From Sphingomonas sp. Root720 (GTDB lineage: Bacteria; Pseudomonadota; Alphaproteobacteria; Sphingomonadales; Sphingomonadaceae), in the NCBI RefSeq assembly GCF_001428605.1, contig NZ_LMID01000010.1, forward strand, positions 227,195 to 291,194: a DNA stretch of 64,000 nt. Reading direction: 5' to 3'. The notes under the pieces are model-generated. The model searched no databases and was not told the origin of the DNA. It saw only the letters and a program-made list of their open reading frames with translations. Below are positions 53,147 to 64,000 of this stretch, in pieces. The translations under genes were made by a program, and so were the position numbers. Position 1 is the first letter of the stretch; each line of letters starts with the position of its first letter.

Positions 53147-53779
53147 TCAACGTTCGCGCCACGCCAGTAGCGACAGCCCGAACAGGATGAACAGCGCGCC
53201 GCTTACCCGGCTCAGCTGGCGTTGCCATTCGGCGCGGCGAAGATAGCGGGCCAGGGTGCGCCCGCCGGTCGCATAGGTCATATACCAGCCCGACTCGATC
53301 ACCACGAAGGTTGCCAGCAGGATCGCGAATTGCGGCCCCTTGGGAAGCGCAGGAGCGATGAACTGGGGGAAGAAGGCCGCGGCGAAGATCAAGGCCTTCG
53401 GATTGCTGAGGCTGATCAGGAAACCGGCGCGGAACAATTCGCCCGGCGTCCTACGTTGCGGCTCGATCGCATCGGACGCAATGTCGATCGGCGCACCCTC
53501 ATCCCGCCATGCCTTGACGCCGATCCAGATCAGATAGGCCGCGCCCATGATCTTGATCGCCGTCAGCAACTGCGGCAAGGCGGCGAGCAGCGCGCTCATT
53601 CCCATCGCCGACAGGCCGAACAGGCAGAGCAGCGCCAGCATGCACCCAGCCATGGTGAAGATCGCCCGGCCGAAGCCGTGCCGCATGCTCTGGGTCATGA
53701 CGTGCAGCATATTGGGCCCCGGCATCGCCGAGATCACAAAGGTCGCACAGACGAAGATCCACCAGATTTGCAGCGACAT
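53147..53779 (-). CDS. LysE/RhtB family amino-acid exporter
   Basis: 210 aa with five to six membrane spans. The N-terminal AMPGPNMLHVMTQSMRHG is the family signature (PGP then G), and SLSNPKALIFAAAFFPQF is the conserved middle block. Family members export basic amino acids, threonine or homoserine lactones; the substrate is not predictable. 23 bp after the ceramide-synthase-like gene on the same strand. Confidence 0.88.
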   Translation of the reverse strand: MSLQIWWIFVCATFVISAMPGPNMLHVMTQSMRHGFGRAIFTMAGCMLALLCLFGLSAMGMSALLAALPQLLTAIKIMGAAYLIWIGVKAWRDEGAPIDIASDAIEPQRRTPGELFRAGFLISLSNPKALIFAAAFFPQFIAPALPKGPQFAILLATFVVIESGWYMTYATGGRTLARYLRRAEWQRQLSRVSGALFILFGLSLLAWRER

Positions 53780-53802: not shown

Positions 53803-54951
53803 TCAGAGATCCTTGGCGTAGATGCGATAGACCTTGTTGATCCGGCTATCGATGGTCTCGGCGATCGATCGCATCCCCTGATTGTCCTCGAGGATCCAGC
53901 CGATCTCGCTGCGGCTGGCGCCGTAATTGGCGATCGAATCGCGGCGGATATATTCGATCATCATGAAGGCCAACTGGCTCGCGAGGCGGGTCGCCTGCAG
54001 CTTCTTGACGACGCCCATCAGCGGAACCCGCATGGTCTTCACCTGGGGCTTGCGCAGCCGAAGGAGCAGCTTCGCCCAGCCGAAGGGGAACAGCCGCCCG
54101 TCGAGATCGGCGGTCAGCTCGTTGAGGTCGGGCAAGGTCATCATGAAGGCGACCGGTTCGCCATCGACCTCGGCCACGCGGATCAGGTCCTCGAACACGA
54201 CCGGCTTCAACTTCTTGCCGGTATAGGCGATCTCGCTCGGGGTGATCGGAACGAAACCCCAATTGTCCGACCAGGCATCGTTGAGGATCGACAGGATCAG
54301 CGCGGCTTCCTCGTCGAAGCGGCTCTTGTCGACCTTGCGGATATGGATGCGCGAATTTCGTTCGCCCGACGACACGATCCGCTGCACCAGCGGCGGGAAA
54401 TCCCCGGTGATGTCGAGCTCATAGCACAGGAGATCCTTGATCCCCTTGTAGCCGAGCGGCTCGACCCAGCCCTGATAGGCGGCATTGTGATGGCCCATCA
54501 TCACCGTCGGCGGGTGATCATGGCCCTGCACGAGCAGGCCAGGCTCTTCCCAGATAGAGCAGCTGAGCGGCGCCATGACGCTGGTCATGCCCTGGTCGCG
54601 CAGCCATTGCTCGGCCCGTGCGATCAGCGCGGTGGCGATCTCCTGGTCGGCCGCTTCCAGCAGGCCCCAATTGCCGATGCCCGGGCCGCCACCCTGCTCG
54701 ACGGGCATCGACAGCCACAGATGATCGATATGCGCCGATATCCGACCGACCAGTTTCCCGCCGCGCTCGGCGAGGAAGAGCTGCTGGTCGGCATGCTCGT
54801 AGAAAGGATTCTTGCCGGGCGTGATCAGCTCGAGCGCCTCCATCCGCAACGGCGGCACCCAGTTCGGATCACCTGCGTTGAGCGTGAAGGCCAGTTCGAC
54901 GAAGCGCTTCCGGTCCGCCTTGCCGGCGGCGGGACGGATGAGGAGAGACAT
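53803..54951 (-). CDS. GNAT-fold protein, probable bacterial ceramide synthase
   Basis: 382 aa. The opening RKRFVELAFTLNAGDPNWVPPL and the NPFYEHADQQLFLAERGGKLVGRIS block match a GNAT-related family of about 380 residues that includes the Caulobacter ceramide synthase bCerS, which acylates the amino group of the long-chain base. The acetyltransferase-like core is N-terminal; a second GNAT-like half (EVDGEPVAFMMTLPDLNE) follows. No membrane span. Its ATG overlaps the stop of the upstream hydroxylase gene (TGATG), so both are made together. Linkage to serine palmitoyltransferase 9 kb away supports a sphingolipid role. The generic annotation is N-acetyltransferase. Confidence 0.68.
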   Translation of the reverse strand: MSLLIRPAAGKADRKRFVELAFTLNAGDPNWVPPLRMEALELITPGKNPFYEHADQQLFLAERGGKLVGRISAHIDHLWLSMPVEQGGGPGIGNWGLLEAADQEIATALIARAEQWLRDQGMTSVMAPLSCSIWEEPGLLVQGHDHPPTVMMGHHNAAYQGWVEPLGYKGIKDLLCYELDITGDFPPLVQRIVSSGERNSRIHIRKVDKSRFDEEAALILSILNDAWSDNWGFVPITPSEIAYTGKKLKPVVFEDLIRVAEVDGEPVAFMMTLPDLNELTADLDGRLFPFGWAKLLLRLRKPQVKTMRVPLMGVVKKLQATRLASQLAFMMIEYIRRDSIANYGASRSEIGWILEDNQGMRSIAETIDSRINKVYRIYAKDL

Positions 54952-55715
54952 CAGTGCGGGATGCGCTGGCTCGGATGGCCGGTCGCGACACCGCCCGACA
55001 GTTGCGCGACCCGGGGATAGCGCCGGGCGACCTCGGGCGTATAGCCGAGGTTGAACACCGTCTCGCTCTTCTTCGCCTTGTCGATCCGCTCGTAATAGGT
55101 GCCGAACAGCCGATCCCAGAAATAGTTAGTGATGCCGAAATTGCCGCGCTCGTCATGAAAGTGATGCGCCATGTGGCGGGCCTTCATGTTCACCACCCAC
55201 CGCTGCTTCGGCTTGTAGGCCAGGTGCTGGATGCAGTGGAAGAATTCGTAGACGCAGGTCGTGATCAGCCCGGTCGCGAAGGCGGCCAGCGCCGCGCCGG
55301 TGCCGCCGATCGCATAGCCGATCGGAGCGGTTGCGAGCGCGATCGTCGGCAGGGTCGTGTGGAGCGCACCGAACAGGATTTCGAGCCGGTTCGGATCCTG
55401 GTGATGATCGTAATGGATACGCTTCCAGGTCGCGGCCAGGAAGGGCACCTTGAACATCCAGCGGCTGTGCAGCACCCAGCGGTGCAGGCAATACCAGACC
55501 AGCGGGTAGACGAACACCGATACACCGATCGCCGCCAGGGTCGGCAACACCGGCGCGGGATAGCGGAAGAACAGCCCGATCGCGATCGCAGCGCTGAGCA
55601 GATAGCCCATGATCGCCGGATATTGGAAATAGGCGATCACCAGCTCGCGCAGCGTCATGCGGTCGAGATGGTGGTCCTTCGCCCAGAAGGCGGGCTTGAT
55701 GGCCGACAACTTCAC
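54951..55715 (-). CDS. fatty acid hydroxylase/sterol desaturase superfamily membrane protein
   Basis: About 254 aa from GTG 55715, which has GAGG six bases upstream; the open frame continues to TTG 55814, and an internal ATG lies at 55658. Four membrane spans and the eight-histidine di-iron pattern: HRWVLH, HYDHH (IHYDHHQD), EFFHCIQH and MAHHFH. This is the superfamily of fatty acid 2-hydroxylases and sphingoid C4 hydroxylases. Sphingomonad glycosphingolipids carry 2-hydroxymyristate, and the gene is coupled to the ceramide-synthase-like gene, so N-acyl 2-hydroxylation is the favoured role. Substrate unproven. Confidence 0.78.
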   Translation of the reverse strand: MKLSAIKPAFWAKDHHLDRMTLRELVIAYFQYPAIMGYLLSAAIAIGLFFRYPAPVLPTLAAIGVSVFVYPLVWYCLHRWVLHSRWMFKVPFLAATWKRIHYDHHQDPNRLEILFGALHTTLPTIALATAPIGYAIGGTGAALAAFATGLITTCVYEFFHCIQHLAYKPKQRWVVNMKARHMAHHFHDERGNFGITNYFWDRLFGTYYERIDKAKKSETVFNLGYTPEVARRYPRVAQLSGGVATGHPSQRIPH

Positions 55716-55816
55716 GCAAAACCTCGATTTCGAAAGCGCCCCGGGTGAGGCTCCAATATGGGATCGCGGTCTGGATTGGCAATGCGGCGCTTTTGCGACC
55801 GTTCGGCGTCGCAAAG

Positions 55817-56911
55817 CTATTCCTCGGTCCGAATCAGCACCGTTTCTCCGATCAGCAGGAACAGCAGGAAGGGCGCCCAGGCCGCCAGAAAGGGTGGATA
55901 GGCGCCGAGATTGCCCATCGCCAACGCGAAATTATCGGCGACAAAATAGGCGAAGCCGAGCGCCATGCCGATCACCGCGCGGATGAACAGATGGCCCGAG
56001 CGGGCGAGACCGAAGGCGGCGACGGCCGCCAACAGCGGCATCAGTACCGCCGACAACGGCCCCGAGAGCTTGTGCCACAGGCCGGCACGCAGCGGCCCCG
56101 TCGGACGGCCGGCGGCTTCGAGATCGGCGATCGCGGTGCGCAGCTGCAGGATCGACTTGGATGCCGGATCGACGTTGGACAGGGTGAAGCGGTCGGCGGT
56201 CACCCCCCGGCCGAAATCATAGGTCGGCAGCTGGGTCGTGACACCGCGTTCGACATCGAAACGGCCGGCTCCGGCGATCCGCCACACGCCGCCCGTCTGG
56301 AAGGCACGGCTGCCCTTGACGATCGCGACGAGACGGCCGCCCGTGCGATCGTAGACGGTGATGTCGCGGAGCTGCGCCTGCGTTCCCCGGCCATGCACCG
56401 CGATCGCATGGATCAGGTCGTCGCCGTCGCGTACCCAGACGTTGGGGACGATACCGCGATCGCGGGGGATCAGGCCGTAATCGGCATCCTGCCACGCGCT
56501 CAGCGTCGCGGTGGCGCGCGCCACGACCCGTTCGTTGAAGGTGAACGACAGGATGGCGACGCCGAGGCTGGCCACCACCAGCGGCGCCAGGATCTGGTGG
56601 GCGGAAATGCCCGCCGCCTTCATCGATACGATCTCGCTGTTCTGGTTCAGCGTGACGAAGGTGATGAGGGTGGCCAGCAGCGCCGCAAAGGGCAGGAAGC
56701 GGGCGATGATCTGAGGCGTGCGCAGGGTGACGTAGATCCACAGCTGCGCGTCGCCATTGCCGGGATAGGCAAGAATGTCCCCCGATTCCCCCAGCAGGTC
56801 GAGCGCCATCAGAACGATCACCAGCGCCGCCAGCACCGCCGCGAAGCGGACGAGGAACATCCGGGCCATGTAGAAGGTCATCGTCGGCGAGGCGAAGAAG
56901 GAGATATTCAC
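55817..56911 (-). CDS. lptG: LptG-type (YjgQ) permease
   Basis: 364 aa. Three spans, a periplasmic beta-jellyroll domain (about 130-260) and three more spans: the LptF/LptG layout. SEIVSMKAAGIS is the coupling-helix region that contacts the LptB ATPase. GTG 56911 overlaps the lptF stop as GTGA and fixes the start. LptB2FG normally extracts lipopolysaccharide from the inner membrane; in an organism expected to carry glycosphingolipid instead, the cargo may differ. Confidence 0.88.
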   Translation of the reverse strand: MNISFFASPTMTFYMARMFLVRFAAVLAALVIVLMALDLLGESGDILAYPGNGDAQLWIYVTLRTPQIIARFLPFAALLATLITFVTLNQNSEIVSMKAAGISAHQILAPLVVASLGVAILSFTFNERVVARATATLSAWQDADYGLIPRDRGIVPNVWVRDGDDLIHAIAVHGRGTQAQLRDITVYDRTGGRLVAIVKGSRAFQTGGVWRIAGAGRFDVERGVTTQLPTYDFGRGVTADRFTLSNVDPASKSILQLRTAIADLEAAGRPTGPLRAGLWHKLSGPLSAVLMPLLAAVAAFGLARSGHLFIRAVIGMALGFAYFVADNFALAMGNLGAYPPFLAAWAPFLLFLLIGETVLIRTEE

Positions 56912-58110
56912 GCGGCCTCCTTCCGGCCGAAGCGGACCCAGCGTCCGACCGCCTTGAACGCCTTGTCGGCACCGCGTTCGAGTGCGCCGATCGGCTGACC
57001 GCCGGGGACGTGGGCGATCGTACGATACATCCACCATACCAGTGCCGCGAAGAACAGGAAGGGCACCCATAGCGCGATCAGCGGATCGATCCGGCCGAGC
57101 GCTGCGACCGAGGCGGCATATTCGTTGATCTTGTGCTGGGTCACGATCATCACGATCGACAGGAAGACGCCGAGGGCGGAGGAGGAGCGCTTGGGCGGAA
57201 TGGCCAGCGCGAGCGCCAACATCGGCAGCAGGAACATCGTCGCCACCTCCACCAGGCGGAAATGGAATTCCGACCGGAATTGGGCACGCTGCTTCGCCGG
57301 GGTCTTCGCCTGGTGCGCGGTCACCACCAGTTCTGGCATCGTCATTTCAAGATCGCGGCCGCCGCGCTGGCGAAAGGCTTCCATCTTCGGCAAGTCGATC
57401 GGCAGGTCGTGGCCCACGAACTGGAGGACGCGCGGCTCCTTGAACTGCGGCGCGTCGTGGACGAGCACGCCCTTCTGGAGCCGCAGGATGATCGTGTCGG
57501 GATCGTCGGTAGCCAGGAACTGGCCATGTTCGGCGGTCACCGCCAGGCTCTTCCCATCCTTCGATTCGGTCATCACGAAGATACCCGAAAGCTCGCGCCC
57601 CCCTTCGCGGCTGCTTTCGACGCGAATCGTCATCCGCTTTCCGAGCTTGGTGAATTCGCCGACCTTGATCGATGCGCCGAGCGCGCCCGAACGCAGCTCG
57701 AAGCGCAACCCCTCATAGGCATAGCGCGAATAAGGCTGGACGAAGCCGACTATGGCAAGATTGAGGAGAGCCAGGGCGACCGCGTAATAATAAGGCACGC
57801 GCAGCAGCCGGCCGTAGCTCATACCCACCGCGCGCAGGACGTCGAGCTCGGACGACATCGCTAGCCTGCGGAAGGCAAGGAGGCAGCCGAGCATCAGCCC
57901 GATCGGGATGCCGAGCGACATATATTCCGGGATCAGATTGGCGAGCATCCGCCAGACGACGCTGACCGGCCCGCCTTCCGACACCACGAAATCGAACAGC
58001 CGCAGCATCTTGTCGAGCGTCAGCAACATCGCCGCGATCACCAGCGTCGCGATCAGCGGCGTCGCGATAAGCCGGGCGACATAGCGGTCGGTAAGCGTGT
58101 CAAATCTCAA
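56908..58110 (-). CDS. lptF: LptF-type (YjgP) permease
   Basis: 400 aa. Six spans around a periplasmic jellyroll domain (about 130-270), as in LptF. SSELDVLRAVGMSYGRLLRVP is the coupling-helix region. The start is TTG 58110 (reading MRFDTLTDRYVARL), with only a weak ribosome binding site; no ATG or GTG is available near the N-terminal helix. Cytoplasmic C-terminal tail of about 35 basic residues. Which of the pair is F or G was assigned by order and length. The first gene of the leftward run, divergent from the DUF2141 gene with 117 bp between. Confidence 0.87.
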   Translation of the reverse strand: MRFDTLTDRYVARLIATPLIATLVIAAMLLTLDKMLRLFDFVVSEGGPVSVVWRMLANLIPEYMSLGIPIGLMLGCLLAFRRLAMSSELDVLRAVGMSYGRLLRVPYYYAVALALLNLAIVGFVQPYSRYAYEGLRFELRSGALGASIKVGEFTKLGKRMTIRVESSREGGRELSGIFVMTESKDGKSLAVTAEHGQFLATDDPDTIILRLQKGVLVHDAPQFKEPRVLQFVGHDLPIDLPKMEAFRQRGGRDLEMTMPELVVTAHQAKTPAKQRAQFRSEFHFRLVEVATMFLLPMLALALAIPPKRSSSALGVFLSIVMIVTQHKINEYAASVAALGRIDPLIALWVPFLFFAALVWWMYRTIAHVPGGQPIGALERGADKAFKAVGRWVRFGRKEAA

Positions 58111-58227
58111 GTTTTCGACGCCCCGTGACCATGTTCTGGCCGCAATCGCAGCCCACCTTCCGACTCATGGGGGCAGTGTGCCGGCCATGCGTTCGCGCAG
58201 GCTATAGCTTCCAGGAGTAATGAGGTC

Positions 58228-58746
58228 ATGTCGAAACTTGTGGTTGGGATGGTTGGACTCTCGCTTGTGGCGGCAATGCCGGCCGCGGCAGGGGCGGCCG
58301 TGCTCGGCCCCGATTCGGCCGCCTGCAACGGCGGCGGCCCCGCGATGCTGGTCCATGTCGATGGTTTCAAGAAGCGCACCGGCACGCTTCGCGTTCAGTC
58401 CTATGGCGGAAACCCGACCCGCTATTTCGAAAAGGGCAGTTGGTTGCGCCGCATCGATGTGCCCGTCCCGCCCTCGGGCGCGGTCGATGTCTGCGTCCCT
58501 GTCGGGGCCAATGGCAGCTACGCCGTATCGGTGCGCCACGACATCGACGGATCGGGCAAGACCGGCATGAATGACGGCGGCGGCATGTCGGGCAATCCGA
58601 GGCTTTCGCTGATGGACGTGATCTTCCGGCGCAAGCCGGCCCCCGACAAGGTGCAGGTGAACGTCCACGGCGTCACCCAGGTCCCCGTCACTCTCAATTA
58701 TGTCCAGGGCGGCTCCTTCGGTCCGCTCGCGATGGCGTCGCGCTGA
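58228..58746 (+). CDS. secreted DUF2141 protein
   Basis: 172 aa. A signal peptide of about 22 residues (ending AGA), then a beta-rich DUF2141 domain containing VPPSGAVDVCVPVGANGSYAVSVRHDIDG (core YAVSVRHDIDGSGKTG) and NDGGGMSGNP. Function of DUF2141 is unknown; members are periplasmic or surface proteins. It lies between the LptF gene (divergent) and the lipid kinase gene, two bases before the latter. Confidence 0.8.
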   Translation: MSKLVVGMVGLSLVAAMPAAAGAAVLGPDSAACNGGGPAMLVHVDGFKKRTGTLRVQSYGGNPTRYFEKGSWLRRIDVPVPPSGAVDVCVPVGANGSYAVSVRHDIDGSGKTGMNDGGGMSGNPRLSLMDVIFRRKPAPDKVQVNVHGVTQVPVTLNYVQGGSFGPLAMASR

Positions 58747-58748
58747 CG

Positions 58749-59720
58749 ATGGCGGCGGTCGCGCTCCTCTCCAATCCACGCTCGACGGGCAACCTGTCGA
58801 TGCTGCCGCGGATGCGGAGCTTCTGCGCCGCGCACAGCGATATCTTCCATTATGAGGTCGAATCGGTCGAGCAGATCGGCGAGGCGCTACGCACCATTGC
58901 CCGGGTCAATCCCAAGGTGCTTGTGGTCAATGGCGGTGACGGCACGGTGCAGGCCGCATTGACCGAGCTCTATCTGGGCAATTATTTCGACGGCGCGCCG
59001 CCGCCGGTGGCGGTACTGCCCAACGGCAAGACCAACCTGATCGCACTCGATCTGGGCGCGGTCGGCGATCCGATCGCCGCGCTCGAACGCGTGATGGAGA
59101 TCGCCCGCAGCGGCATCGAGGACCATGTCGTCGTACGCGAGCTGATCGCCCTGTCGGACGGCGCCGACGGCACCCGTCCGGTGCTGGGAATGTTCCTCGG
59201 CGGGGCCGGCCTCGCCGACACCATCCTCTATTGCCGCAACAAGATCTATCCGCTGGGTCTGCCCAACGGCATCAGCCATTTCCTGACCGCGATCGCGGTG
59301 CTGGCGACCTTGATCCTGGGCATCCGCTCCGCCTTCCTGCCGCCCGCCGCCCGCCCGATGAAGGTGTCGATGATGCGGCACGGCCAGTTGCAGGGCCGCT
59401 TCTCGCTGCTGATCGTCACCACCTTGCACAAGCTGCTGCTGGGTAGCAGCACCGGCGGCACGGCGACTTCGGGCGCGCTCCAGATGATGGTGGTCGAGCA
59501 GCGGCCGCTGCCGCTGCTGCGTGCCTTGTTCGCCGGATTTCTGGGGCGCGTCGGTCGCGATCGCATGGACGGCGTGCATTTCGAGCGCGGCGACGAGATT
59601 CGCATCGAGGGCGACCGCTCGAGCGTGATCCTGGACGGCGAGATCTTCCAGGCGGATACCGGCCGGCCGATCGTCCTCAAGACCACGCCGCCGGTGCCCT
59701 TCCTGCGCCTCGCCGCCTGA
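58749..59720 (+). CDS. diacylglycerol-kinase-family lipid kinase, probable ceramide kinase
   Basis: 323 aa. The catalytic-domain signature VVNGGDGTVQAALTEL and the following VLPNGKTNLIA place it in the DAGK catalytic (DAGKc) superfamily of ATP-dependent lipid kinases, which includes diacylglycerol, sphingosine and ceramide kinases. The C-terminal lobe has DGEIFQ, typical of the fold. Linkage to ceramide genes makes ceramide, or another long-chain base lipid, the likely acceptor. A related kinase acts in anionic sphingolipid synthesis in Caulobacter. Undecaprenol or diacylglycerol remain possible substrates. Start ATG 58749. Confidence 0.78.
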   Translation: MAAVALLSNPRSTGNLSMLPRMRSFCAAHSDIFHYEVESVEQIGEALRTIARVNPKVLVVNGGDGTVQAALTELYLGNYFDGAPPPVAVLPNGKTNLIALDLGAVGDPIAALERVMEIARSGIEDHVVVRELIALSDGADGTRPVLGMFLGGAGLADTILYCRNKIYPLGLPNGISHFLTAIAVLATLILGIRSAFLPPAARPMKVSMMRHGQLQGRFSLLIVTTLHKLLLGSSTGGTATSGALQMMVVEQRPLPLLRALFAGFLGRVGRDRMDGVHFERGDEIRIEGDRSSVILDGEIFQADTGRPIVLKTTPPVPFLRLAA

Positions 59721-59732
59721 ACCGGGCAGCCC

Positions 59733-60656
59733 ATGACCCTCGAAGCGCTGGTGGCGGCGGAACTGGCAGAGCCTGTGGATCCGCGCGTCGCCGCCATGGC
59801 CGCGGCGATCGCGCAGCGCTACGGAACCGCGTCGCGCGCCGTCCTTTTCTACGGTTCCTGCCTGCGCGAATCGAATCTCGACGGGCTGATGCTCGATTTC
59901 TACCTGGTCGTCTCGGACTATGGCCAGGCTTTCGGAACGGGCTGGTTCGCCCTTGCCAACCGCCTTCTGCCGCCCAATGTCTTCCCCTTCGAGCATGACG
60001 GGCTGATCGCCAAATATGCGGTGCTGAGCGAGGCGGATTTCGCTCGCCTCGCCTCGTCGGCGACGCTCAACGTATCGGTATGGGCGCGCTTCGCCCAGCC
60101 GTCGCGACTCGTCTGGGTCGCCGATGTCGCGGCCCGCGAGGCTTGCATCGCCGCGGTGGGCCTCGCCGCTCCCGCCCTGCTCTCAGCGGCCAGGCCGATG
60201 CTGCCCGAACGCATCGCCATCGGGCGACTGTGGGCAGAGGCGTTCGCGCTGACCTACGCGGCCGAATTGCGCGCCGAGCGCAAGAGCCGCGCCGGCTCGG
60301 TGGCCGACGCCGATCCGGATCGCTATCGCCGCTTCACCGCTCCCGCCCTCGCCGCCGCAGGAATCGGCGCGACGATCACCGGCGACGAGGTGGGCTTCAC
60401 CCATCCCCCGACACCCGCCGAACGCAGCATCGGGGAGCGGCTCTGGGCCAGGCGGCGGCGCGAAGGCAAGGCCCTCACCCTAGCCCGCCTGGCAAAGGCC
60501 AGCACCACCTATGCCGGCGGGATCGACTACCTTGCCTGGAAGATCAACCGCCACGCGGGCGCCGCGATCGAGATCAAGCCCTGGCAGCGCCGCTGGCCGA
60601 TTCTCGGCGCGATCAGCCTGCTGCCAAGACTGCTCGCCGGGGGGGCGGTGAAGTAG
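59733..60656 (+). CDS. Tam41-like nucleotidyltransferase
   Basis: 307 aa. AVLFYGSCLRESNLDGLMLDFYLVV fits the YGSxx...(M/L)xDF pattern of Tam41, the mitochondrial CDP-diacylglycerol synthase of the nucleotidyltransferase superfamily (core YGS then LDF). No membrane span except a weak C-terminal hydrophobic stretch. By analogy it would transfer CMP from CTP to a phospholipid-like phosphate. Twelve bases after the lipid kinase gene, it could convert its phosphorylated product, for example ceramide 1-phosphate, to a CDP-activated form. That substrate is a hypothesis; an ordinary phosphatidate cytidylyltransferase role is the alternative. Confidence 0.62.
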   Translation: MTLEALVAAELAEPVDPRVAAMAAAIAQRYGTASRAVLFYGSCLRESNLDGLMLDFYLVVSDYGQAFGTGWFALANRLLPPNVFPFEHDGLIAKYAVLSEADFARLASSATLNVSVWARFAQPSRLVWVADVAAREACIAAVGLAAPALLSAARPMLPERIAIGRLWAEAFALTYAAELRAERKSRAGSVADADPDRYRRFTAPALAAAGIGATITGDEVGFTHPPTPAERSIGERLWARRRREGKALTLARLAKASTTYAGGIDYLAWKINRHAGAAIEIKPWQRRWPILGAISLLPRLLAGGAVK

Positions 60657-60667
60657 GCGGCCTGGTT

Positions 60668-62659
60668 CTACGCCGCCTGCGAGTTCGACAGTTCGCCACG
60701 GCGTTCGATCGCGCGGGTGACGGCGTTGCCCAGCGCTGCGATGGTGAAGGGTTTGCGCAGCACTTCATGGCCTGCGAAGTCGTCGCTCTGCCCAGCCTCG
60801 CCGACATAGCCGGTAACGAACAGCACGGCGATGCGCGGATAGTCCCGGCCGATCGTCGCAATCAGTTCGGGACCGGTCATGCCGGGCATCATCACGTCGG
60901 TCAGGATGAGGTCGAAGCGCGAATTTTCGGCCAGGATGGCCACGGCCTCCTCGCCCGAGGCGCAGGCGCGGACCATATGCCCGAGCTCGGCCAAGCCGGC
61001 GCGCGTCGATGCCTGGACGCGAGGGTCGTCCTCGACCAGCAGGATCGAGAGTGAACCGGTGTTCGGCCGCACGGCGTTGACGGCGTCGGTCACGCTCCGC
61101 TCGGCCGCGATCCCCCGATAGCGCGGCAGGTACAACGAGATGGTCGTGCCCTTGCCGACCTCCGAGTCGACGCGGACATCGCCATGCGACTGACGAACGA
61201 AGCCGAAGATCTGGCTGAGGCCGAGGCCGGTCCCCTTGCCGACCGGCTTGGTCGTGAAAAACGGCTCGAACGCGCGCGCGAGGACCTCCGGCGGCATCCC
61301 GCAGCCGGTATCGGTGACGGCGATGCGGACATAGTCGCCCGGTTTGATGGCGGTCGAATCGGTGCCGCCGATCGCGACATCGGCGACCGATATGCCGAGC
61401 CGTCCCGCCCCTTCCATCGCGTCCCGCGCGTTGACGGCGAGGTTCAGGATCGCGTTTTCGAGCTGGTGTGCATCGGCCCAGATCGGCCAATGCGCCTCGG
61501 TGGTGTCGACATCGACGGTGATGCGTTCGCCCAGGGTCCGATCGAGCAGGACGTTCATCCCCGCGACGAGCCGTGCGGGCTGCACCGCATCGGGCAGCAG
61601 CGGTTCGGCGCGGGCGAAGGACAGCAGCCGCCGGGTCAACGCCGCCGCGCGGTCGGCTCCCTCCATCGCGCCGTCGAGATGGACGCCCGCCTCGGCCGGA
61701 CGCTGGGCGATCTTGCGCCGCGCGAGATCGAGGCCCCCCACCACCACCGCGAGCATGTTGTTGAAGTCATGTGCGATGCCGCCGGTAAGCTGACCGACCG
61801 CTTCCATCTTCTGGGCCTGGGCGAGTTGGGCCTCGGCGCGCGCGCGGGTCTCGCTCTCCTCGCGCAGCCGGCTATTGGCCTCGCTCAACTCGCGGGTGCG
61901 TTCGGCGACGGCCGTCTCGAGCTGCGTGGCGCGATCGAATTCCACCTCGGCCTGCTCGGCGGCATGGGCGCGCTGCGCCGCCGCCGCCGCCGCGAGCCAG
62001 CCGAGCAGGATGGCGAGGCCCATCAGCACGAGGCCGAGGACCGACAGCAACGTCGCGAAGCCGTTGGCCCGCTCGGCCGAGAAGAAGGTATCTTCGGACC
62101 GCTGGCCCAGGCGGGTCCGCTCGTTCGAGGCGATGCTTTCGAGAGTCGCTGAAATGGCGACGACATTGGGGGATTCGCCGGCCTTGTTGAACATGCCGAT
62201 CGCGTACCAGCCCTTGCCGACATTGGCGAAGGAGGCGGCTGCCGCCAACTCCTTGTCGCGTTCTGCCGCCAGTCGCTCGAGCTTCCGGACCAGCTTCCTC
62301 TGTTCGGGCTGGCCTGCGACCAGCCTGTCGAGCTGGCGCAGCTGGCTGATCGCGCGGCGCCATTCGTCATAATAGATGGTGCCGACCCGACGATCGCCGC
62401 TCACCACATAGCGCCCCAGCGCCGCCTCCGACCGCGCCAGCGACGCGTCGAGCGAGCGGGTGAGCACCATGATGTCGTAGCTGTGCTGCTCGCGCTGCAA
62501 AGCCTCGTCGCGCGCGTCGTTCGAGCGCGCGACCATGGCGACCACCGCGATCAGCAGGCCCAGCGCCACGACGGCGAGGACGGCAGCCGCGAGCACGCGC
62601 TGCGCCGCGGGGGACACACCCCGCTTCAAGGCGTCGGGAGAGAACGTCGCCATCATCAT
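60668..62659 (-). CDS. hybrid sensor histidine kinase/response regulator
   Basis: 663 aa. Two membrane spans (about 19-43 and 202-225) enclose a CHASE3-like sensor of roughly 155 residues. Then a coiled coil, HisKA with the phosphoacceptor in [11 protein letters not shown], HATPase with N box [11 protein letters not shown] and G boxes DTGCGM and GTGLGL, and a C-terminal receiver domain with LTDVMMPGM. No output domain, so signal leaves by phosphotransfer. It lies between the Tam41-like gene (convergent, 11 bp) and spt, and may regulate the sphingolipid genes, though nothing in its sequence says so. Confidence 0.9.
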
Positions 62660-62716
62660 CTTGTACCGTAGCCGCAGCGACGGGCAAAGCCACTAACCGG
62701 ACGAACCGTTGAAAGC

Positions 62717-63922
62717 TCAGGAGATGACCCCCGTTGCCCTCCCCGCGCTTTCGAACATGCCGAGGATACGGTCGACCTGCTCGTCGCTATGTTCGGCACA
62801 TAGCGAGCAACGAAGCAGGAACATGCCCGCCGGCGTCGCCGGAGGCCTGGCGGTGTTCACATAGAGCCCTGCTTCGAGCAGCCCCTGCCACAGGCCGACG
62901 GCCTGAGCCATGTCGGTCAGGATCACGGCGATGATCGCCGACTGGGCCGATTCGGTCCCGAGCTTGTAACCCATGTCGCGCAGCCCCTGGTGCAGGCGGC
63001 GGGAGTTCTTCCACAGATGGGCGCGCTTTTCGCCGGCGTGCATCAGCTTGCGGATCGAAGTCGCGGCAGTCGCGACCACCGACGGCGGCAGCGAGGCGGT
63101 AAAGACATAGGGACGGCAGACGAGGCGCAGCACCTCGAACTTGGGATGGTTCGAGACGCAGAAGCCGCCGACCGTTCCGACCGACTTGGAGAAGGTGCCG
63201 ACGACGAAGTCGATATCGGCCTCCACCCCGGCCTCCTCGAACACGCCGCGGCCATGCTCGCCGAAGAAGCCCATGCCATGGGCTTCGTCACAGAGGATCA
63301 TCGCACCATGCTTCTTGGAGACGGCGACCATTTCCTTGAGCGGGGCGATGTCGCCCATCATCGAATAGACGCCCTCCAGGACGACGAGCTTGCCCGCCTC
63401 GGGCGGAAGACGGCCCAGCCGCTTGTCGAGATCCTCGACCGAATTATGACGGAAGCGTACGATCTCGGCGTTGCCGAGCCAGCAGCCGTCGTAGATCGAC
63501 GCATGGCTGTCGGCATCGAGGATGATGTAATCGCCCTTGCCGGCGATCGTGGAGATCATCCCGAGATTGGCCTGATAGCCGGTCGAGAAGACGATCGCGT
63601 GCTCGGTTCCGTAGAACTCCTTCAGCGCTTCCTCGCACTCCTTGTGGCCCTGATAGGTGCCGTTGAGCACGCGGCTGCCGGTCGTGCCCGAGCCGAATTC
63701 GTCGAGCGCCTTCTTGCCGGCCGCGATGACGTCCGGGTCGAAGGTCATGCCCATATAGTTGTAGGTGCCGAGCAGGATGGTCTTCCTGCCGTTGATCATT
63801 GCCTCGGTCGGCGACAGCACCTCGTCCATCACGATCGCGTACGGGTCGCGTACCCCGGTGGCGAGCAGGGCCTCGCGCTCGGCGATCAGCGGGTCGAACT
63901 TGGAAAAGAGATCGGTCGCCAA
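62717..63922 (-). CDS. spt: serine palmitoyltransferase
   Basis: 401 aa fold-type I PLP enzyme. It condenses serine with an acyl thioester to 3-ketosphinganine, the first step of sphingolipid synthesis. GTYNYMGMTFDPDVI, DADSHASIYDG (stacking histidine), DEAHGMGFFG, and the PLP lysine in GTFSKSVGTVGGF; the late ARPPATPAG arginine binds substrate. It matches the soluble sphingomonad enzyme closely over its whole length. The start is TTG 63922, two bases after the stop of an acyl carrier protein gene, so it is coupled to it. Confidence 0.95.
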   Translation of the reverse strand: MATDLFSKFDPLIAEREALLATGVRDPYAIVMDEVLSPTEAMINGRKTILLGTYNYMGMTFDPDVIAAGKKALDEFGSGTTGSRVLNGTYQGHKECEEALKEFYGTEHAIVFSTGYQANLGMISTIAGKGDYIILDADSHASIYDGCWLGNAEIVRFRHNSVEDLDKRLGRLPPEAGKLVVLEGVYSMMGDIAPLKEMVAVSKKHGAMILCDEAHGMGFFGEHGRGVFEEAGVEADIDFVVGTFSKSVGTVGGFCVSNHPKFEVLRLVCRPYVFTASLPPSVVATAATSIRKLMHAGEKRAHLWKNSRRLHQGLRDMGYKLGTESAQSAIIAVILTDMAQAVGLWQGLLEAGLYVNTARPPATPAGMFLLRCSLCAEHSDEQVDRILGMFESAGRATGVIS

Positions 63923-63924
63923 GG

Positions 63925-64000
63925 TCAGCCCCGCAATTTGGCTACGGCGTCGACCAGCTGGCCGACGGTTTCGATCTCGGCCTGCATGTTCATCGTGATG
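63925..64000 (-). CDS. acyl carrier protein (partial, C-terminus only)
   Basis: The last 24 codons (beginning ITMNMQAEIETVGQLVDA) of a leftward gene that runs off the window end. Helix 4 pattern (E-I-x-T-V-x-x-L-V-x-x-V) is that of acyl carrier proteins. Ends two bases before spt. A dedicated acyl carrier protein gene beside spt is known in sphingomonads and implies that acyl-ACP rather than acyl-CoA may feed the enzyme. The serine attachment site lies outside the window. Confidence 0.8.
   Translation of the reverse strand, partial: ITMNMQAEIETVGQLVDAVAKLRG

Follow-up and report, generated by a model that had tools for sequence, protein, structure and literature searches.

The closest described relative of the locus considered here is the Caulobacter gene cluster CC_1152-CC_1168, whose mutants have been characterized for ceramide and phosphosphingolipid synthesis and which has listed orthologues in Sphingomonas wittichii and in Zymomonas (PMC11324152). 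In Caulobacter, CC_1160 is the ceramide kinase CpgB, CC_1161 (CpgC) is required for ceramide phosphoglycerate, and LptF2/LptG2 are the proposed exporters; cpgA, cpgD and a LicD-like gene, needed for CPG2, have largely good orthologues scattered over the S. wittichii genome (PMC11324152). The mechanism of CpgC is described as unidentified (PMC12275187, PMC13228409). A Caulobacter DesA-family gene is held responsible for ceramide acyl hydroxylation, and its loss leads to colistin resistance (PMC11324152, citing other work). We describe a related locus at positions 53803 to 64000 of the window, a 64,000-nucleotide stretch of Sphingomonas sp. Root720 (G000:C10:227195-291194 of a 5.59-Mb draft genome).

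Because the Caulobacter cluster and its S. wittichii orthologues are already published, the locus as such is not new, and most of it is already known; the noteworthy features are its hydroxylase, the apparent exchange of hydroxylase families beside cerS, and a sole LptF/LptG pair in a genome with no LpxC match. On balance, and with no great confidence, we favor the view that alphaproteobacteria have a single ceramide-hydroxylase slot beside cerS that is filled by one of two unrelated metalloenzyme families, with the Scs7/FA2H type the commoner in the class and, on at least two occasions, replaced at the same site within the host's order. The window enzyme would then be the N-acyl 2-hydroxylase of the host, and the whole Lpt permease would be given over to sphingolipid export.

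Organization of the locus

The features of the locus are as follows.

53803..54951, minus strand: CerS-like GNAT N-acyltransferase, candidate bacterial ceramide synthase (PF00583, E 1.7e-5; position matches that of CC_1154 (CerS) beside LptG, PMC11324152)
54951..55814, minus strand: candidate Scs7/FA2H-type ceramide (N-acyl) 2-hydroxylase (PF04116, E 1.5e-21)
55817..56911, minus strand: LptG permease (TIGR04408, 286.1 bits, cut-off 240)
56908..58110, minus strand: LptF permease (TIGR04407, 240.2 bits, cut-off 230)
58228..58746, plus strand: DUF2141 protein (PF09912, E 1.2e-13)
58749..59720, plus strand: CpgB-like ceramide kinase (DAGK_cat; PF00781, E 1.5e-12; adjoins CpgC as CC_1160 adjoins CC_1161, PMC11324152)
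59733..60656, plus strand: CpgC, Tam41-fold nucleotidyltransferase of 307 residues, proposed CTP:ceramide-1-phosphate cytidylyltransferase (assigned by fold, no Pfam match)
60668..62659, minus strand: CHASE3 hybrid histidine kinase (CHASE3/HisKA/HATPase/REC; PF05227, PF00512, PF02518, PF00072)
62717..63922, minus strand: serine palmitoyltransferase Spt (NF047603, 799.5 bits, cut-off 670)
63925..64000, minus strand: 3' end of acpR, dedicated acyl carrier protein (PF00550, E 1.3e-9)

All of the genes named in the initial annotation are intact open reading frames in the order it gave, as judged from the reading frame list and family matches, with acpR lying partly inside the window (its last 76 bases; the whole gene is at L005:120-362, in a stretch that reaches past the window edge). 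The LptG start, read by eye, is probably a GTG near 56911 that overlaps the LptF stop. Beyond the window, acpR follows spt and is succeeded by a Pycsar effector family protein, a CerR candidate, proB and obg (the last two by eye). The reductase had been predicted to lie beyond position 64000, and a candidate is found there, a 301-residue NAD(P)-binding epimerase-like protein on the spt strand; spt, acpR, cerR and cerS are thus all present together, with cerS and cerR assigned by family and position only. For comparison we kept 80 named loci, chosen for the hydroxylase, out of at least 578 relatives; the nearest hydroxylase among them is that of Rhizorhabdus histidinilytica (91% identity), where the gene order is identical, and the host is therefore a Rhizorhabdus-like sphingomonad.

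We consider this to be, with good probability, a ceramide and anionic-sphingolipid locus in which all of the following steps are combined. Spt, supplied by the dedicated acyl carrier protein, would form 3-ketosphinganine, which the GNAT protein CerS would N-acylate and CerR, just past the window, would reduce at the keto group. The Scs7/FA2H-type di-metal hydroxylase, whose reading frame overlaps that of CerS, would add a 2-hydroxyl to the N-acyl chain, standing in for the DesA-type hydroxylase of many relatives. CpgB would phosphorylate ceramide, CpgC, with its predicted Tam41 fold, would activate ceramide-1-phosphate with cytidine triphosphate (CTP) as a step towards ceramide phosphoglycerate, and LptF/LptG, the only pair found in the genome, would extract the finished sphingolipids for the outer membrane. 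The linked pathway of the initial annotation (ketosphinganine synthesis, N-acylation, hydroxylation, phosphorylation, activation and inner-membrane extraction) is backed by family and synteny; its observation is confirmed and its interpretation partly supported. What the analysis shows directly is gene families, synteny, phyletic patterns, the lack of LpxC and PF00487 matches in the genome and a predicted CpgC fold; the enzymatic activities, translational coupling, hydroxyl position, LptF/LptG cargo and lack of lipopolysaccharide are inferred.

The hydroxylase

The hydroxylase open reading frame codes for 287 residues, with an uncertain start at TTG 55814 or a later codon, the latest being ATG 55658, and its stop codon shares bases with the start of CerS (TGATG), an arrangement that may couple their translation. 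Its top match in the PDB is yeast Scs7, which hydroxylates very-long-chain fatty acids of ceramide (4zr1, E 8.1e-11, residues 97-241), and ten histidines arranged as HX4H-HX2HH-HX3H-HX2HH, aligned with those of Scs7, are present in all 125 sequences longer than 200 residues, the window protein included. Scs7 carries a cytochrome b5 domain, for which the window hydroxylase has no Pfam match. Two genome samples place the gene beside cerS: CerS directly follows it in 24 of the 28 hydroxylase-positive genomes of the order set (118 genomes from the host's order), and the two adjoin in 17 of 19 stretches read from the class set (190 genomes from the class). CerS is on the hydroxylase strand in 72 of the 73 named loci that have it.

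Members of the family are also found away from sphingolipid genes. On a Sphingomonas plasmid (L047) one lies in a low-oxygen island with Crp/Fnr, hemN, truncated haemoglobin, universal stress protein, AdhP and hcp genes, odd company for an oxygen-using enzyme. Part of the same gene set is near the hydroxylase of Sphingomonas sp. TDK1 (L152), and in S. echinoides (L138) only AdhP and a metal-ATPase relative are nearby, perhaps an island of the same type.

Apparent exchange of two hydroxylase families beside cerS

The hydroxylase, counted at E <= 1e-15, is present in 28 of the 118 order genomes, 27 of which have Spt, and in only four of the 35 from the host's own family (f1); it is thus not universal in sphingomonads and not their one central hydroxylase. 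Spt itself is found in 112 of the 118 (E <= 1e-100) and in all 95 of good quality. A PF00487 (DesA-type) protein occupies this position next to cerS in some order genomes without the hydroxylase, and a profile (A3) built from five such slot proteins matches 96 of the 118 genomes, three of them weakly; two of the A3 negatives were obtained by subtraction rather than from a list. Together, 20 order genomes have the hydroxylase only, 88 the DesA-type only, eight both and two neither, the last being G104 and G106 (69% and 67% complete). The window genome has no PF00487 match.

The slot itself was surveyed in 121 stretches of the order set, two coming from some genomes. CerS is present in 83 of these, and among the families sought the gene just upstream of it is the hydroxylase in 24, LptG in 23, a DesA-type protein in 19, a flippase in 16 and DUF2141 in one. 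None of the 19 genomes with a DesA-type protein in the slot has the hydroxylase. Eleven of these DesA-type genes are on the opposite strand and all are in f1, where G000 (the window genome), G030 and G053 have the hydroxylase; the other eight are on the same strand in family f5, where six further genomes have the hydroxylase in an otherwise equal gene order. The f1 and f5 patterns read as exchange in place. Where LptG or the flippase adjoins CerS (39 genomes), a DesA-type gene is present somewhere in 37, two of them weak matches, the others being G104 and G106.

Across the class set, 25 of 190 genomes have Spt, 20 have the hydroxylase (all within the 25) and four have the DesA-type, two of these together with the hydroxylase; the five Spt genomes without the hydroxylase divide into two with the DesA-type and three with neither. 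With the hydroxylase in 20 of 25 Spt genomes, Spt is accompanied more often by the Scs7/FA2H type than by the DesA-type in this sample. A quick tree built from 112 Spt proteins, used to correct for ancestry, shows at least 13 changes of the hydroxylase and at least 15 of the DesA-type. The uncorrected association is very strong, but related genomes are not independent: a Fisher test (3e-14) and a hypergeometric test (1e-22) ignore ancestry and are not used as measures of strength. With ancestry corrected, exchange is suggestive, and the case for it draws also on the shared position and partner gene, and on the role reported for the Caulobacter DesA-family gene in ceramide acyl hydroxylation.

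Several observations weigh against this account of the hydroxylase and its slot. Exchange is not absolute, as both families are present in eight of 118 order genomes, six of the 24 genomes whose slot is taken by the hydroxylase carry a DesA-type gene elsewhere, and three of the 25 class Spt genomes have neither (G182, G239 and G187, the last 82% complete). One hydroxylase-positive genome, G014 (97% complete, 800 contigs), has no Spt match. Of the four positives outside the 24, G039 and G085 lack CerS in the stretch surveyed, and the survey did not take in the hydroxylase stretches of G010 and G042. Corrected for ancestry, the signal is no more than suggestive: in eight supported independent pairs on the tree that differ in the hydroxylase, the DesA-type goes the opposite way in an average of 5.3 and the same way in none (median p 0.0625), and if the three weak DesA-type matches are treated as absences, one pair moves in the same direction (p 0.22). 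The slot DesA-type proteins are putative counterparts of Caulobacter CC_0202, likened to it by family label. Hydroxylase distances do correlate with those of CerS (r 0.86, 114 sequences of each), though less closely than LptG distances do (0.91, 96), and they follow those of Spt (r 0.775, n=64) less closely than CerS distances do (r 0.894, n=60); the looser fits of the hydroxylase make some independent movement of it likely. No second superfamily member came up in the PDB search for comparison with Scs7, and the PF04116 superfamily also contains sphingoid C4-hydroxylases and sterol enzymes.

The main rival as to the site of hydroxylation is the sphingoid base: the hydroxylase would act at C4, as in phytoceramide, and the DesA-type would make the 2-hydroxyl where both exist. 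Membership in a superfamily that includes the C4-hydroxylases suits this, as do the eight genomes with both families, which two different reactions would permit. We nevertheless think it unlikely, since among solved structures the nearest match is Scs7, a ceramide acyl hydroxylase, and the hydroxylase is present in 20 of the 22 order genomes without the DesA-type (the other two being the 69% and 67% complete genomes), which fits one shared reaction. Ceramides of two Novosphingobium species, whichever hydroxylase type those strains carry, are annotated as d18:0/14:0(2OH) and similar, with 2-hydroxymyristate, in PMC13318209, in which the word 'hydroxylase' occurs 0 times. The 2-position of the N-acyl chain is thus the preferred site.

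Linkage of the locus across relatives

The genes of the locus are linked far above chance: in 75 of the 80 named hydroxylase loci, CerS or LptG lies on the stretch as well, and the order Spt-CpgC-CpgB-DUF2141-LptF-LptG-[flippase]-hydroxylase-CerS recurs in other families of the order. The remaining five are varied, with spt, HK and cpgC in L108, a flippase in L122, none of the genes sought in L116, and L152 and L138 as described above. The linkage of the other genes to spt that was put forward at the outset is not universal, since in several f1 genomes the spt stretch has, of the genes sought, spt and acpR alone. The CHASE3 hybrid kinase, which the initial annotation listed with the locus, was found at 250 bits or more in 11 genomes of the order set, all in f1 stretches, and is an accessory of own-family loci.

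In the sphingolipid cluster of Roseomonas mucosa (L046) the hydroxylase is flanked by lptG and cerS. This cluster is on a large plasmid, neither cerR nor aasR being visible in the part that was read, and the hydroxylase is present in 11 Roseomonas plasmid records. A contig labelled Bacillus sp. 2B10 (L092) bears a sphingomonad LptF-LptG-hydroxylase-CerS stretch, probably through contamination or mislabelling.

The phosphosphingolipid branch

CpgB and CpgC are side by side in the window, and their putative orthology to CC_1160 and CC_1161 is drawn from family, order and fold. The description of CpgC as Tam41-like stands as regards fold, the predicted structure supporting a Tam41 fold strongly (7ecd, 6ig4) at 13% identity, and does not extend to sequence family: it has no Pfam match, no Tam41 model is among the matches of 24 members, phmmer against the PDB found nothing, and a CpgC profile against the PDB gave one weak match to another nucleotidyltransferase (E 0.39). 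CpgC is thus a protein of Tam41-like fold rather than a Tam41 family member; its proposed role is CTP-dependent activation of ceramide-1-phosphate.

DUF2141 goes with CpgB. Among the 67 named loci with LptF, DUF2141 is present in 36, CpgB in 35 and both in 33. The DUF2141 model is beta-rich (pLDDT 87.7) with no significant match to PDB folds (best E 0.011), and its N-terminus by eye resembles a signal peptide. CC_1157, a possible counterpart in the Caulobacter cluster, was deemed probably unrelated there (PMC11324152).

The initial annotation assigned the kinase and Tam41-like steps to a glycosphingolipid pathway, and homology instead points to a ceramide phosphoglycerate branch: by family, order and orientation the two are CpgB and CpgC, so that this part of the locus would serve an anionic phosphosphingolipid. 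Glycosphingolipid is a major lipid of sphingomonads, and Spt, LptF/LptG and CerS stay together where the stretch has no CpgB; in 12 named stretches of more than 15 kb, Spt, LptF, LptG, the hydroxylase and CerS are present and CpgB is absent from the stretch, though it may lie elsewhere. A locus making mainly glycosphingolipid, with the kinase and Tam41-like genes serving glycosylation or lipid recycling, nonetheless seems doubtful, and a little more so than hydroxylation of the sphingoid base, as no glycosyltransferase is among the genes of 53803-64000 and CpgB and CpgC are placed genetically in Caulobacter ceramide phosphoglycerate synthesis (PMC11324152). The ceramide steps and LptF/LptG may well serve both glycosphingolipid and phosphosphingolipid.

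Export and lipopolysaccharide

The window genome has two PF03739 matches, which are the LptF and LptG of the locus, so that, unlike in Caulobacter, the pair is not a spare beside another. LpxC has no match in this genome, the same search being positive in four of 14 controls including Escherichia coli and Caulobacter, and the host is probably without lipopolysaccharide. The likeliest cargo of LptF/LptG, judged from gene content, is sphingolipid. Cargo is not readable from sequence, and the pair could carry some other glycolipid with its place in the locus incidental, but this is very unlikely given that the genome, which lacks an LpxC match, has no LptF/LptG matches beyond these two, and that their position is kept in other families and in the Roseomonas plasmid cluster. 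With one pair and no LpxC match, the sphingolipid route to the outer membrane is open to study in this type of host, probably free of a lipopolysaccharide background.

Source of the 2-hydroxyl group

The literature available offers more than one source for the 2-hydroxyl of such sphingolipids: a Sphingomonas P450 that acts on fatty acids (PMC10002949) and, in Caulobacter, a DesA-family gene (PMC11324152, citing other work). The host's order is described, in the excerpts available, with C14:0 2-OH among the predominant acids, worded as 'and/or', and these hold no 2-OH data for Rhizorhabdus itself. FA2H homologues are reported to be functional in myxobacteria (PMC10002949), and an annotated 'sphingolipid/fatty acid hydroxylase' of Rhodothalassium is mentioned beside an Spt finding, so that the gene has been glimpsed earlier (PMC11762602); among the matches listed in a search largely outside subscription papers, we recognized no paper that assigns a gene of FA2H type to a locus of this sort. 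Least likely of the alternatives is that the 2-hydroxyl comes from a peroxygenase P450 (P450SPalpha/CYP152 type) acting on free fatty acids while the hydroxylase has another lipid substrate: P450 fatty acid 2-hydroxylases have been cloned from Sphingomonas species (PMC10002949) and PF00067 gives 21 match rows in the window genome, but the 20 P450 loci read have canonical heme motifs (18 by script, two by eye) and no CYP152 stretch, by a motif comparison that is a weak test, and the hydroxylase adjoins cerS and in the class sample is found only with Spt. With a hydroxylase overlapping cerS, the origin of the 2-hydroxyl is directly accessible to genetics in loci of this type, which also supply bacterial relatives of the human disease gene FA2H, together with a natural alternative for comparison.

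Neighboring genes

A LysE-type exporter (window 53147-53779) comes after CerS; it is also present in six Rhizorhabdus-like loci (L078-L083) and in no other named stretch. The Pycsar effector family protein between acpR and the CerR candidate (L005:498-1040; PF18967, E 4.2e-26; PADLOC PycTM, E 4.4e-15) has counterparts beside acpR in further loci; instead of a defence effector, it may be a protein of the envelope.

Comparison with known systems

The window and the Caulobacter cluster CC_1152-CC_1168 have in common spt, acpR, counterparts of cerR and cerS, CpgB, CpgC and LptF/LptG. The Scs7/FA2H-type hydroxylase between lptG and cerS and the CHASE3 hybrid kinase beside spt are found only in the window, and cpgA, cpgD and the LicD-like gene are at the locus only in Caulobacter, where LptF/LptG are moreover a second pair beside the lipopolysaccharide pair, unlike the sole pair found here. 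The mitochondrial Tam41 and bacterial CDP-diacylglycerol synthase (7ecd, 6ig4) use phosphatidic acid, in contrast to the ceramide-1-phosphate proposed for CpgC, which has no sequence-family match to them. The hydroxylase shares with yeast Scs7, mammalian FA2H and the myxobacterial homologues (PMC10002949) a PF04116 core, ten histidines aligned to Scs7 and a sphingolipid context, and differs from Scs7/FA2H in having no cytochrome b5 match, a bacterial cerS operon and an activity that is putative. With the Caulobacter DesA-family ceramide hydroxylase CC_0202 it has in common a proposed reaction in which the amide-linked acyl chain is hydroxylated (PMC11324152, citing other work), and it belongs to a different Pfam family, PF04116 as against the PF00487 implied by the 'DesA family' label of that paper.

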